From: Gamsiella multidivaricata
Lineage: Eukaryota; Mortierellomycota; Mortierellomycetes; Mortierellales; Mortierellaceae
Direction of reading: 5' to 3'
Assembly: GCF_025024155.1 (NCBI RefSeq)
Contig: NW_026251798.1
Coordinates: 1 to 64,000 of the forward strand
Length of the DNA stretch: 64,000 bases
Within the stretch, counting starts at the first letter, position 1. Every line of letters begins with the position of its first letter. The notes under the pieces are model-generated. The model searched no databases, was not told where the DNA came from, and worked only from the letters and a program-made list of their open reading frames with translations. The translations under genes were made by a program, and so were the position numbers. Below, in pieces: positions 29,650-36,855 of the stretch.

Positions 29650-30058
29650 ATGAGGCCCACCGTAATCAGTCAAGGCACAGCAGAGGCTCCAGAGAACATG
29701 TCCCAATCATCACAGTGTCAGGCACCTTCAACTCGCCTGCAAAACCAATATCAGCAACAGCAGCAGCAGCAACTCCCTGCAGATTGCCTGCCTTGCAAGG
29801 TCGTAGGCTGCGTTGGATTCAGTGGCCTTGGCCTGTACTCCTTTTACCAAGCACAGCAGTTGCCCAGGAACCTGGTAGCCCGAAGGCTTGGTCTCGGACT
29901 CATGGGAACAGGTACATATCTTCGTCACTCTTTAAATCGAAGCGAAACGTTTGCGGAAACCACTCCTAACAGCCTTTTTGTCAGTGTTCATCGGAGCGGC
30001 TGTCTACAGGTTAACTATGCCCACAAACCAGGAATTATCATCGTTATCGAAAAAGTAA
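29650..30058 (+). CDS. DMAC1/DUF4536-like mitochondrial membrane protein
   Basis: Exons 29650-29911 and 29985-30058 give 111 residues; a second in-frame ATG at 29698 is an equally good start. After a Q-rich head comes the domain: DCLPCKVVGCVGFSGLGLYSFYQA, then ARRLGLGLMG, then across the splice GTVFIGAAVYRLTMPTN. Two short hydrophobic helices with the C-x2-C before the first are typical of the DUF4536 family. In animals its member DMAC1 (TMEM261) helps assemble the distal membrane arm of respiratory complex I in the inner mitochondrial membrane. Fungal members are less studied, so the role is inferred. It is divergent from XRCC4. Confidence 0.75.
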
Positions 30059-30308
30059 ACCGTTCCTGTATCTTCAGCTCATTGTTTCTTCATGATTGAA
30101 AAAAATATATTTCTTTGTAAAAAAATTTTAAGTGAATAAACGGTGTATAGACCTAGATAAATGTGTAGTATGGTGTATGTGCGTGTCTCCTTCTTAGTGC
30201 TTTCCCTCCTGGGCACGGAAAGAGCTGCTGCTCCATCGTGTTTTTGGTATTTTTTAAAGATTAGAAATTAGAAAATTATTTTTTGGGTAAAGAGAACGGG
30301 CGAGTTCT

Positions 30309-33300
30309 TTATGTCTTGCCAAAGTAGACCTCGCGCAATGTCTCGTGCGTGTAACGCTTCTCGGCATCGACTTCCAGCAATCCCCTGATAGCCTGGCGGG
30401 CATCGTCTTCCCGGACGGCGTCCAAAGCAGGCTCGAATTTAACTCCGTCGTCGTTCGTCAACTGGAACTCGGCGAACGCGTTCGAAGAGAAGTAGGTCTT
30501 GCGGGCGTGCAACTCGTAGATAATCAATCCCAGGGACCAGCGATCCATCGAGACAGACGACAGGACATTGGCATCACTCTTCTTGCGTCCGTTCAAGATC
30601 TCAGGGGCAGCATAGGTGACCGTTGTAACAGAGGTATCGACGGTCTCACCGACAAAGCGTGCATGGCCGAAGTTCCAAAGCTTCCAGATCAGCTGTCCGT
30701 TGCTGTTCTTCGCATCCTGTCCAGGAACACCCTCGAGGTAGAACGAAGCAGGGCGGACGTTCAGGTGAACAACATGATGCTCGTGGCACCAGCGGAGAGC
30801 ATCCGAGAGCGAAGCGGTCAATTGACGGATCTGGATCGACGACAGCTGCTCTGTCTGCATGTAGGACTCCAAGGTACGAGAGAAAGAGCCCAAGATCGAG
30901 ACATAGCGGTATTCGGCAAACGTTGGCAGTGAGTACAGGGTATAGAGGTCGCAGATATAGCGGTCAGACTTGAGGTGCTGAAGCATACCAGCCTCACGCT
31001 TCCAGTGGGCCTCGGTCTTCATCCACTTGATCGTGCGACGAGCGTTGGGGGCTTTAACCTCCTCAACGTGCGAGTAAGCAGTGTCCTCAATGTTGACATC
31101 ACCGGGTGCGAGCATCTTGAATTTAGAGAACATGACGGCGCCAACAGCGGCGTTAGGGACGGCAGCAGAGGCGTCAGCACGCTCGTAGCGCATAATGCTC
31201 AACTTGAGAGTGATCTGGGTCTTGTTCGCGGCCTGCTCAGCGGGGGTCAAAGTACCACCTCCAACAACACGGGTCGTGGTAGTGGTCTGGTGGTTGTTTC
31301 CAACCAAGGTGGCTCCAGCTCCGACAACAACGGCGCCTCCTGGGATGCGGAAACCGCCATCCTCGGTGCGCTCAACAACAGTGCGGATCTCCTGTCCGTC
31401 GGGTCCGTTGGTAATCTGGTAATAACGGGTCTCTCCGGACTCATTACGCTCAGCAACGATGCGGGTCTGGGTCGAAGTCGAAGCACCCTCAGGGACAACG
31501 CCTCCAGAGACGGTACGGGTGGTCGTGGTAACATTTCCGGTAATGACGGCGCCAATGACCTTGCGGATCTCACCGGACTCGGTTCTCTCCTCAGTCACAT
31601 AGCGCAGCTCACCCTCGGGCTCCTTAACTGGGATATGGACCCACTCGCCGGTCTCCACGTTGCGCTCAAACTTGGTGCGGATAGCGTTGCCGTTGTACTG
31701 ATCAATAATCACATAGCGGATCTCGCCAGTCGAGGTGCGCTCGGTCACAATGCGGGGTCCCATAATCACGCGAGTAATCGTAGTACCGGAAATGATGCCT
31801 CCGACAATGTAGCGGGTCTCACCAGTCTCGGTGCGCTCAGTAATGACATGGCGAAGCTCACCGGTCTCCTCGTTCGTGGGGGTCATGCGGGTCTCTCCAG
31901 ACGAAGTACGCTCAATAATGACACGGATAGCGTTTCCGCTGAAGCCACCAATAATGATGTAGCGGATCTCACCAGTCGAGGTACGTTCGGTCACAATGCG
32001 GGTCGATGAGGTAACAGAGCAGACGCCTCCAGGGATGACGCGGGTGCTGCCAGACTCGGTGCGCTCGGTAACAGTGCGGATTGCTCCTCCAGCAATGATA
32101 CCGCCAATAATGTAACGGGTATCGCCAGACTCGGTGCGTTCAGTGATAACATGGTGGAGTTCTCCAGTGGGCTCGTTGGTAGGGATCAGGCGGGCCTCGC
32201 CAGACACGGTGCGCTCGGTCAAGACACGGATAGCATTGCCGCTGAAGCCGCCAACAATAACATGGCGAATCTCTCCAGTGGAGGTGCGCTCAGTGATGAT
32301 ACGGGTCGAAGAAGTCGTAGTCGTAGTTCCACCGGGAATGATGTGGGTGGTCTCTCCAGAATTAGATTCAGTGCGCGAAGAAACGATATGACGAACGATA
32401 CCAGCGCCGGCAGCGCCAGCAATAATTCCTCCAATGATGTAGCGGATCTTGCCGTTATGGTCGCGCTCAGTGATAATCTCGCGCTCCTCGCCCTCGGGGG
32501 CATCAACAGGGATGAGGATGTCCTCGCCAGTCTCGGTACGCTGAGTGATGGTGCGAACAGTGGTAGTGTCAGGAACAACACCGGTCAAGACGTGACGAGG
32601 GGAACCATTTTCAGAGCGTTCAGTAACCACAGTGCGGCCACCAGTGCCGGTCGTGGTGTAGATGCGGCCGCCGTTCTTGGTGGTCGTGACAGTGGTCTTG
32701 CTGGTTATCGTGGTCGATTCGTTAGAGTCAGAGCGCTTATTACCGGCAAGGACAGCACCGGCACCGAGAACAGCGCCGCCCAACAAGACGTTTCTGCCGA
32801 GGTGGCTATCAGAGGAAGTCTCCTCAACCTCCTCAGTTGTCTCGGTAGTGGTCGTGCCTCCAACAGGGTACACTCCACCAGGGCCGGTAGGTCTCTTGGT
32901 CGAGTTATCAGAGGTAGGTCCGCCGGGAACAGGAACAGGAACGGGAGCACCGCGACCATTCTGGGTCTCAGTGGTGTTGTCATTTGGACCGCCAGGAACG
33001 GGAGCAGGGGTAACATGGCCATGGGAAACCTCTTCACGGTCATCCTTGTTCTTACGATTAGCAGCGGCAGCACCAAGGGCACCGGCACCAATAAGACCGC
33101 CAGCGATCGCACCAGGGTGCATACCGTGACCAGATCCAGAGGGACCAGAAGGACCACCGGGATAAGCACTGTTGTTGGAAGGACCACCGGGGTAAGTGTT
33201 GTTGCCGGAAGGACCGCCAGGAGGGAAGCTTGAGTCGCCGGAAGGACCACCGGGGTAACGAGAATCATTAGAAGGACCACCGGGAACAGGGACAGGGGCA

Positions 33301-36300
33301 ACATGACCATGGGAAACCTCTTCACGGTCATCCTTGTCCTTACGGTTAGCGGCAGCGGCACCGAGGGCACCGGCACCAATAAGACCGCCAGCGATCGCAC
33401 CAGGGGGAATACCGTGACCAGATCCAGAGGGACCACCAGGAACAGACGAGTCACCAGAAGGACCACCAGGGTAGGCGTTGTTACCGGAAGGACCGCCAGG
33501 CAAGTCCTTGTCTTGAACAACAACGTCATCCAGATCACCGAAAGGACCAACAGGAGCCAGAGGTGGGATTCCGCCATGAGCAGAGCTGTACTCGGAGTGA
33601 CCAGCACCGCCAATACCTCCAGCAGCATACTCCTCCTCCTGGTGTCTTCTGCGACGACGGGCAAAGATGAACAGCAAAGCAATCAGGCAGATCAGGGCCA
33701 GAAAACCGAGAATGCCTCCGATGATAGCGCCAGTGTGATTTCCGCCGCCAGAGGTCTTGGAACCGTCGCTGCCGCCAGGGAGAATAGGACCAGTAGGAAC
33801 GACGGAAGAACCAGAGGAAGTGGATGTGGGAGGAACGACAGTAGGGCCACCAGATGGGGCACCAGTGGGGACGTCGGGGCCTGGGGCTGGGATCCAGACT
33901 CCACCACCAGAGCCACCACCACCGGATCCACCGTCGCCAGATCCACCACCACCGGTTCCTCCACCTCCAGATCCACCGCTACCGGTTCCTCCACCTCCAG
34001 AGCCACCACCACCGGTTCCTCCGCCTCCAGATCCACCACCACCGGTTCCACCACCACCGGTTCCACCACCACCGGTTCCTCCGCCTCCAGATCCGCCACC
34101 ACCGGTTCCACCACCACCGGTTCCTCCGCCTCCAGATCCACCACCACCGGTTCCTCCACCTCCAGATCCACCACCACCGGTTCCACCACCACCGGTTCCT
34201 CCGCCTCCAGATCCGCCACCACCGGTTCCACCACCACTGGATCCTCCACCTCCAGAGCCACCAGATCCGCCGCCACCGGATCCACCTCCTCCGGATCCAC
34301 CGGTACCAGGGACGTAGATTACGGTGGGAGGAGTGATGGTACCTGGAGTAAGGGACTCACCAGGTTTCAGGTTGGTCGAACATTTATCAGCGGAGGCACA
34401 GCCACCATAGACAATGATACCCGTACCGCAGTTGGCGACGCCAAAGTCTCCAGAGATGGGAGCTCCCTGGGACTCGGGGACGATGGTATAAGGTGCACCG
34501 ACAGTGGTGTTAACGCTCCAGACACCGACACCAGCATCGTTCTATTTTGACGACAAGGCAAAAGACAAATGCAATAGCGTTTAGTTTTTGATTTCAATGA
34601 ACACGATGTTGAGATACGCGACATGTTGGTAGGAAGTATTGGAGAGACACGCCAAGGAAAGAAGAACGAGCGATAAGGATGGGGATAAGGCTAAGCGAGA
34701 CTACATCTGATTGTCTGAAGATCGATTGTGGCACCATCCATTGTGCTCAAGGCGTGTCCAACTCAACGTCAAGAGCAAAATTAAGAGAACAAACAACAAC
34801 CACCACCCAATTTTTTGTCCATGTTTGACATCGTATTACCTTGCCAAAGACATAGATAGAGCCTTCCCAGTTAGCGGTGCGAGGCACGGTAACGTTCAGG
34901 GCAGGCAAGGGGTGGAACTCGCTTGTGGTCGAGACAGGCTTGTCCGAGGGAGTCGTGGCTGAGTCGATGTCGTACCAGCCAGAGCCCTTGGGTCCAAAGA
35001 GGAAAAAGGTCTTGCCATCCTTGGGTGACGCGGCGACTCTCATGTCGGCGGGAACATTACTATTTGAAATAGTGGAAGAGGAAATATACATATCGGGCAG
35101 TTAAATCGTTGTTCACATAGGGCATACACCAAGTCGCGCCACCACACAACAACCAAAAGAAACTTACGAGGTCGTCAGTTGGTTGCAAGAGTGCACAGTG
35201 TCGTTGAGCAACTGGACGCCGGTCAAGTGAGCACCCTGAGAATCCTGCCAATGAATCAAGATGTCATCAATGGTAGACTGGGTGTTCTGGTAGACAACGG
35301 CAGCGTTGTTAGGGTAGGTCAATGTGCAAGGAATGGGCTGGTAGGTCCAGGTACGGGCCCAATGGTCCCAGACGGCAATGCCACCCTCGTATTGGACACC
35401 GAAGTGGTTCTTCGACGTCAGGAAACATTGTTCGGTGTGGTAGGGCTTTCCACCTCCAGGATAGGGCAATGAGGTCCAGATAACACTTGACCAGTCGGAA
35501 GAGCACGTCGACTGCTGGACAAAGTTGAAGACCAGGTCGCCCCTGGAGTCGTAACCGATCATGTAGGTCATGTTATTGGCGGAGTCAATGACAATACATG
35601 GGTGTTGGAGCACTGGTGGTGGCTCAGCGTGCCATTTGCCCACAACCGCGCCGGCTAAAGATACAAACCCAGAAAACAGAGTGACGGATGTGGTAAGCAC
35701 CATGCAGCCATTTGGGAATATGTGATGTAGGATACCATCTGGAAAGGCGCTTAAGAGCGCCAGATGTGTATGGCTGTGAATTTTTTTTTTTTTTTTTAAT
35801 TGATCGAGAGCAGTTACAACACCAAAAGATAATAATAACAGGCGGGTGTAATATGAGCATTTTGTACTGGTATATGAGCGATAGGGAACAGAGAGTGAAC
35901 AGGACTAAGAGGCGGTCTGGAGCAGCAGAGAGCGAGAGCGAAAGTAAATCCGACATCATACTACCTCCCTTTGGTGGCCAATTGCAAGAGAAGTTAAAGG
36001 TGTAGAAGATCGCAACAAAATGGAGGAGTGGAGTGGCGGGACAAGCGCCCTGTGCTGAAGGGAGAGGGAAGCGAAATCTAGACCTGAAACAAGAAACCAT
36101 ACGAGTGGTGCCCTGAATCCCGTTCCTGAAAGTAAATAACCTTAAAATATTCATAGCAACAGGGGTCATTGGGACCGTTGGCATGCCCATGATAAAGCAC
36201 CCTATGTACATACTGATTCTTCCGAGGAAGAAGAAAAAAAGATGATGGACATCACCTCACATCCCGAGGGCGCACAATCAGTCTGGTATAAAAAAATAAA

Positions 36301-36855
36301 ATAGAAAAAATCGCACCAGCGCGTGCATGCACCAGGGATATGTGTGCAGTTAGCAGCGGACGAAATGCAGTGGCGAGTAGAGGGGATGTGGATAGGGGAA
36401 AGACATGCACCAGTACCGACCTGCCACAAAACCAAAAAAAACCAAAAAAAAAAAAACCAAAAAAAAAAGACCATAGGCAATGCCCCTTATCGGCGCATTT
36501 GCAAAGCAGTGGTATATTGTGGTCGATGCCCAATTTTTTTCTAGTCCAAAATGCTTGCTAAAGAAAACAACTGCAACGGCTGTTCCTTTTTTTACTTTGA
36601 TACTGACTTTGTGATCAAAACGAATAAGACTATTGTCTTTGTGGGTTGGAAAAGGGCGGCCCTCAAAGAAACACCCCGAGGATGCATGGTGTATACGTGT
36701 GCAATGGATAGACGGGAGAAATAAAGGGAGGGGGGGGGGGGGCGGCGGAGGGTGTGCTTACGATCAATCTCGACTTGAGCCAAGGCGGGTGCGGCAGCGA
36801 GCAAGAAAGAGGTCAAGAACGATGCCATTGCGGCCTTGTTCTTTTGGCTATCCAT
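30309..36855 (-). CDS. giant single-pass membrane protein with cytoplasmic repeats and C-terminal pseudokinase
   Basis: Exons (minus) are 36762-36855, 35168-35654, 34840-35059 and 30309-34541, giving 1,677 residues. Exon 1 encodes a signal peptide (ASFLTSFLLAAAPALA). Residues about 33-340 form an ectodomain with beta-rich, Kelch-like phrases (GGKPYHTEQCFL, WEGSIYVFGK, GTGIIVYGGC). Residues about 345-470 are a Gly-rich linker of GGGGS/GGGGT type. One transmembrane helix (about 537-558, IIGGILGFLALICLIALLFIF) is followed by RRRRR, so the rest is cytoplasmic. Next come P-G-G-P-S repeats, two copies of a glycine-zipper segment (GAIAGGLIGAGALGAAAANRK), many ERT-x-[ST]-G-E-x-R units, and a kinase fold (about 1380-1677). 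In the kinase fold the HRD motif reads HLN and DFG reads NFG, while APE is kept, so catalysis is doubtful. I know no named family with this whole layout; a cell-surface sensor or adhesion receptor is my inference. Confidence 0.8.
33000..33440. repeat. direct duplication of about 145 bases inside the pseudokinase gene
   Basis: Positions about 33000-33150 and 33288-33440 are near-identical in DNA. Both encode the EEVSHGHV segment, the glycine zipper, the NRK-[ND]-K-D-D-R-E-E motif and GSGHG. The stretch between them encodes PGGPS repeats. Synonymous differences show the copies have begun to diverge. Confidence 0.85.
33925..34310. repeat. tandem DNA repeat encoding Gly-Ser/Thr linker
   Basis: A degenerate tandem array built from CCACCACCGGTT, CCTCCGCCTCCAGAT and CCACC-type blocks. 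On the minus strand it encodes runs of GGGGS, GGGGT and GGGS between the ectodomain and the membrane helix of the pseudokinase protein. The plus-strand frames across it (proline-rich) are shadows. Confidence 0.9.
36730..36742. repeat. G13 run in intron 1 of the pseudokinase gene
   Basis: Thirteen consecutive G on the plus strand are C13 in the transcript, about 20 bases inside the first intron after its donor at 36761. Confidence 0.9.

Follow-up and report, generated by a model that had tools for sequence, protein, structure and literature searches.

A receptor-like pseudokinase gene in Gamsiella multidivaricata and its relatives in the Mortierellaceae

Results

The window analysed here, a stretch of 64,000 nucleotides within a contig of 133,374 bases from the 37.5-Mb genome of Gamsiella multidivaricata, carries on its minus strand, from 36855 to 30309, a receptor-like gene whose four exons join into one open frame of 1,677 residues. 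As the original prediction had proposed, this single frame leads from a predicted signal peptide (residues 1–26) through an ectodomain, a Gly-rich stalk, a membrane helix with its arginine cluster and a repeat region into a kinase fold. The signal peptide and the helix were read from Kyte–Doolittle (KD) hydropathy alone, and the relatives named in the following list are public proteins, sorted further below into subfamilies A, B and C.

36762..36855, minus strand: exon 1, start codon and predicted signal peptide; open frame, hydrophobic core of KD 1.75, donor gtaagc
35168..35654, minus strand: exon 2, coding for the first half of the ectodomain (KWHAEPPPVLQHPC...); 52% against P0045, a relative in subfamily B
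34840..35059, minus strand: exon 3, middle of the ectodomain, based on splice sites and orthologues
34541-30309, minus strand: exon 4, from the end of the ectodomain through the kinase
34353..34541, minus strand: end of the ectodomain within exon 4 (to about residue 330), based on orthologues and the propeller-like model of relative P0045
33897..34307, minus strand: Gly-rich stalk, (GGGGS/T)n, with 22 GGGG[S/T] units; 70% Gly over residues 345–500
33660..33731, minus strand: predicted transmembrane helix, residues 538–561, KD peak 2.96 at residues 543–561
33645..33659, minus strand: arginine cluster RRRRR directly after the helix, from the sequence
32793..33644, minus strand: juxtamembrane region rich in Pro and Gly, containing PGGPSG repeats and a Gly/Ala-rich stretch that occurs twice; 54% and 67% against two orthologues
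31353..32705, minus strand: ERTxxGExRY repeat region, with 12 units counted by pattern; 77% against either of two orthologues
30312..31232, minus strand: pseudokinase domain, residues 1371–1677
31026..31028, minus strand: beta-3 lysine (VAIK position), kept
30993..30995, minus strand: alpha-C glutamate, kept
30759..30767, minus strand: HRD motif, reading HLN
30666..30674, minus strand: DFG motif, reading NFG
30600..30608, minus strand: APE motif, kept

The gene model rests on three introns with donors gtaagc, gtaagt and gtaata and ag at all three acceptors, and a CT-rich stretch lies upstream of exon 1. That exon 1 and the ectodomain might have been borrowed from another gene is suggested by the length of intron 1 (1,107 bases) and by P0046, the public model of this gene, which is 100% identical to the kinase query along the 31% that it covers, starts in exon 3 and so lacks exons 1 and 2, carries a shorter stalk and loses the frame inside the kinase; its start in exon 3 and its frame exit explain why it has neither a signal peptide nor a listed kinase domain. 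Such an artefact is hardly credible to us, however, given that the end of the ectodomain, the stalk, the helix, the repeats and the kinase all lie in a single open stretch of 1,410 codons, that the public orthologues P0012 and P0018 independently join ectodomain to kinase, and that 2 of the 18 subfamily B and 13 of the 43 subfamily C models make the same connection with a hydrophobic N-terminus. The signal-peptide exon itself is supported by its splice sites and by relatives. Translation could alternatively begin at 35703, a position within intron 1 that shares the frame of exon 2, and the product would again open with a hydrophobic segment, so that secretion of the protein does not depend on exon 1 alone.

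The ectodomain holds 8 Cys residues and 4 N-x-S/T motifs; it matches no Pfam family, WSC included, at E-values up to 1, and no solved relative by sequence at E-values up to 10. A predicted model of the ectodomain of P0045 is strand-rich, and its structural matches are propellers that include a fungal fucose lectin and kelch domains. Of nine sequences scanned (eight relatives and window exon 2), three gave Kelch_1 (best E 0.77) and one gave Kelch_KLHDC2 (E 0.0013), the scores of P0045 falling under the cut-offs. The stalk that follows is about 137 residues long in the window protein, and the relatives carry Gly/Ser-rich stalks of varying length. Beyond the helix, the Gly/Ala-rich stretches at 33404-31240 on the minus strand, presumed to be cytosolic, are glycine-zipper-like and could contact the membrane. 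A 326-residue part of the ERT repeats has no sequence match in the PDB at E-values up to 1.

That the C-terminal domain has a kinase fold, as originally claimed, is borne out by Pfam, whose Pkinase family matches residues 1439–1669 above its curated cut-off and far beyond chance (E 3.2e-23), by a predicted structure and its structural match (VIA-align comparison), and by the relatives; the best PDB sequence matches are the Ser/Thr kinases AMPK, CaMK1D and ULK1. Loss of at least one of the beta-3 lysine, the HRD aspartate and the DFG aspartate marks a pseudokinase, and here the lysine is kept while both aspartates are Asn (HLN and NFG), with APE intact, just as the original prediction had read them. 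The sequence thus supports a catalytically dead kinase. Against the two orthologues this dead domain is the best conserved of the segments compared (85% and 89%), above the helix (79–82%), the repeats (77%) and the whole ectodomain (76–77% to P0012 and P0018). A dead domain better conserved than its ectodomain argues for a docking role.

These parts bear on two other readings of the protein. Fungal wall sensors of the Wsc/Mid2 type are stalked single-pass proteins, and a protein of this style, or an adhesin, would feel wall stress through its stalked ectodomain, with the dead kinase a mere tether and no ligand-gated switch; the long flexible stalk, the single strong helix and the variable stalk lengths of the relatives would all suit it. 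Yet the window protein differs in its large pseudokinase inside the cell and in lacking a WSC or other Pfam domain in its ectodomain, for which reason we rejected WSC membership, and the propeller-like model suggests specific binding while the pseudokinase is the segment that is conserved best, so that we think a wall sensor unlikely. Fungal IRE1 is likewise a type I single-pass membrane protein with a kinase fold, and an endomembrane sensor resembling IRE1 or PERK would share the order of luminal beta domain, helix and kinase fold as well as a strand-rich N-terminal domain. The window protein, unlike IRE1, has no RNase domain and has lost its catalytic residues; PF06479 is absent from its Pfam matches (E up to 1) and found instead in a separate gene of the genome, which led us to reject IRE1 membership, and a Gly stalk of such length has no obvious use in the endoplasmic reticulum. 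An endomembrane role is therefore quite improbable. IRE1 also qualifies the original statement that single-pass receptors with kinase folds are rare in fungi, which is right without being absolute.

The gene belongs to a family and is no isolated oddity. Two public searches with the window kinase returned 9 and 38 proteins, and a third with the relative C137 (named, like the other Gamsiella relatives below, by contig) returned 43; after removal of P0046, the gene itself, and of P0049, they comprise 27 proteins in subfamily A, 18 in B and 43 in C, counted as proteins and not genes, with some species present twice and with P0059 of subfamily C being the C137 gene from another Gamsiella record. 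All family proteins with a source name come from genera of the Mortierellaceae, the family of Gamsiella itself within the Mortierellomycota. P0049, the sole match outside the Mortierellaceae in one of the kinase searches (2e-7), carries two ordinary kinase domains. The searches required shared 5-residue words and bounded lengths, and the third scored no more than 7,999 candidates; they cannot show that the family is missing elsewhere. The HRD aspartate is missing in 24 of the 26 covered subfamily A proteins (24 N, 2 D, 1 not covered), in 18 of 18 in B (11 S, 5 N, 1 C, 1 G) and in 43 of 43 in C (all N), and the DFG aspartate in all 25 covered proteins of A (25 N, 2 not covered).

Among the public models, 14 of 18 in subfamily B and 39 of 43 in C have a strong helix between residue 40 and the kinase, and the 2 B and 13 C models noted above combine it with a Met start, a hydrophobic N-terminus and the kinase. 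The ectodomain profiles of subfamilies A/B and of C align by hhalign with a probability of 5.2% and an E-value of 0.0076 over 137 columns. The same pseudokinase also ends proteins that lack a strong helix: P0028, with HEAT repeats (Pfam 1e-22), and P0024, P0025, P0026 and P0036, whose N-terminal regions give nothing above Pfam cut-offs. These are single gene models, P0025 and P0026 looking alike across two sources; if they are real, the pseudokinase module moves between surface and cytosol.

The Gamsiella genome holds four relatives. C1 (subfamily B; HLS, NFG), C25 (HLS, SFG) and C137 (subfamily C; HLN, DFT) have a strong helix ahead of the kinase. In C116 (HLN, DFE) the upstream exons join to a C2 domain (Pfam 1.8e-14), and its 1,318-residue frame shows no strong helix. 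By eye, the C-terminal part of this C2 and pseudokinase protein (L029) resembles the N-terminal part of P0024 and P0036. Window exon 2 matches only itself and C1 in the genome, which makes C1 the one relative there to share the window ectodomain by sequence. Reverse searches started from the kinases of C25 and C137 rank the same family set before other kinases. In a tree containing no plant sequence, a branch with support 100/99 separates the 11 family rows from 18 further kinases sampled in the genome, and it was found again against 15 when three long rows were removed. The 18 came from 159 Pkinase matches and were chosen because the match was long and lay within a single open frame, 20 regions having been taken and two (L064 and L065) excluded beforehand. 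The membrane-anchored members by themselves form a clade with support 91/86, or 81/68 without the three long rows, with long branches in both trees, and placing the C2-bearing relative with C25 gives p-AU 0.07 (approximately unbiased test). In the longest frames of six stretches upstream of Pkinase matches among the 159, no hydropathy peak reached 2.5 and two weak peaks stood at 2.0 and 1.96; this control for other membrane kinases is weak, because four of the six came to less than 300 residues and only some were confirmed to be in the kinase frame.

Two other small proteins were noted in the window. At 29650-30099 on the plus strand, tail to tail with the receptor gene, lies a small DMAC1/Dmo2-like protein (Pfam 1e-8). 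At 24441-23902 on the minus strand, a small secreted-looking protein of 179 residues contains the motif C-x3-W-x-P-x-FG-x-G-x2-C four times, with RR or KR after each of the first three copies, and looks like a Kex2-processed repeat peptide precursor.

Discussion

At the level of sequence and models, our analysis establishes the anatomy of the Gamsiella protein, its kinase fold, the loss of its catalytic residues, the conservation of its segments and its membership in a family. As predicted, the sequence sets a signal peptide, an ectodomain, one strong helix and a presumed cytosolic kinase fold in the order of a receptor kinase. The reading that we favour, and consider rather probable, is that of a type I, probably single-pass surface receptor with a dead cytosolic kinase, belonging to a family of receptor pseudokinases in the Mortierellaceae.

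Several observations weigh against this reading. The ectodomain model has a predicted local distance difference test (pLDDT) score of 66.5 and was built on the relative P0045, not on the window protein. The original claim of one membrane helix stands in so far as there is one strong helix followed by RRRRR; weak Gly/Ala-rich hydrophobic stretches (KD 1.27–1.73) come after it and leave the topology open, so that a single pass through the membrane is likely, though unproved. In subfamily A, a strong helix beyond residue 40 is seen in only 3 of 27 public models, and none of the 27 has a Met start with a hydrophobic N-terminus, none joining signal peptide, helix and kinase; six of them (P0013, P0014, P0016, P0017, P0019 and P0021) start within the helix or immediately ahead of it, which makes it likely, while unproved, that the incomplete models are truncated. 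The DFG aspartate is kept in 6 of 18 subfamily B proteins (12 N, 6 D) and in all 43 of C, where the motif is DFT, and P0005 and P0010 of subfamily A have Asp at the HRD position (HLD) together with NFG or NFA. With the HRD aspartate lost nearly throughout, its loss is a mark of the family with two exceptions, and other motif positions vary. Finally, 3 of the 18 sampled kinases outside the family also lack the HRD aspartate (L060, L062 and L063, reading HRH, HRH and HMN by eye); pseudokinases outside the family are thus not rare in this genome, and a dead kinase alone is nothing special.

The two HLD proteins also favour an unorthodox but active kinase, as does the beta-3 lysine, kept in the window protein and in all 24 covered subfamily A proteins. 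With both catalytic aspartates replaced by Asn and no GxGxxG seen in the window domain, and with the lysine changed to Arg in 17 of 18 subfamily B proteins, we regard activity as very improbable.

For the favoured surface receptor, we infer location, ligand, partner and direction of signalling as follows. The Gly-rich stalk would hold the propeller-like ectodomain out through the cell wall, where it may bind a ligand, for which a glycan or another surface protein is the most plausible candidate. Such binding could cluster or shift receptors, upon which the dead, strongly conserved pseudokinase would act as an allosteric docking site, drawing in an active cytosolic kinase or an adaptor and turning it on; the ERT repeats may provide a spacer or a second docking surface.

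Such a layout is familiar from plant and animal receptors. Plants have receptor-like kinases with dead kinase domains, such as DRIK1, which resemble the window protein in signal peptide, ectodomain, one helix, non-catalytic cytosolic kinase fold and helix-less relatives; they differ in ectodomain and kingdom, the stalk and ERT repeats being the window protein's own, and the comparison is by layout and not by tree. Animal receptor pseudokinases include PTK7 and ErbB3, similar in receptor layout and in signalling via partners, whereas the window domain finds its best PDB matches among Ser/Thr kinases, the tyrosine kinases again being compared without a tree. In the literature searched we found no description of this layout in fungi; the available text of PMC8778642, PMC2838846, PMC10234402 and PMC2939053 describes no such fungal proteins, and public names are hypothetical, kinase-like or borrowed from well-known kinases, all in keeping with the undescribed class originally suggested. 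The available text of PMC2939053, a survey of 101 species that does not name Mortierella there, reports leucine-rich repeat (LRR) receptor kinases to be lacking in the fungi surveyed and suggests novel receptor classes. It also surveys oomycete LRR receptor kinases, which share the receptor kinase layout in a hyphal osmotroph and differ in having an LRR ectodomain and in that oomycetes are not fungi (PMC2939053).

We tentatively raise the broader possibility that the Mortierellaceae evolved a surveillance system of their own, convergent with the receptor-like kinases and receptor-like cytoplasmic kinases of plants, in which one pseudokinase module was placed on several surface-receptor ectodomains as well as on cytosolic scaffolds such as C2 and HEAT. 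Such a system would stand in for the pattern-recognition receptors that fungi lack. It is an open question how fungi, having no receptor kinases, perceive other cells and surfaces, and to it a conserved receptor pseudokinase family in soil fungi brings named genes for experiment. The family would also represent an independent case of kinase-dead receptor signalling.
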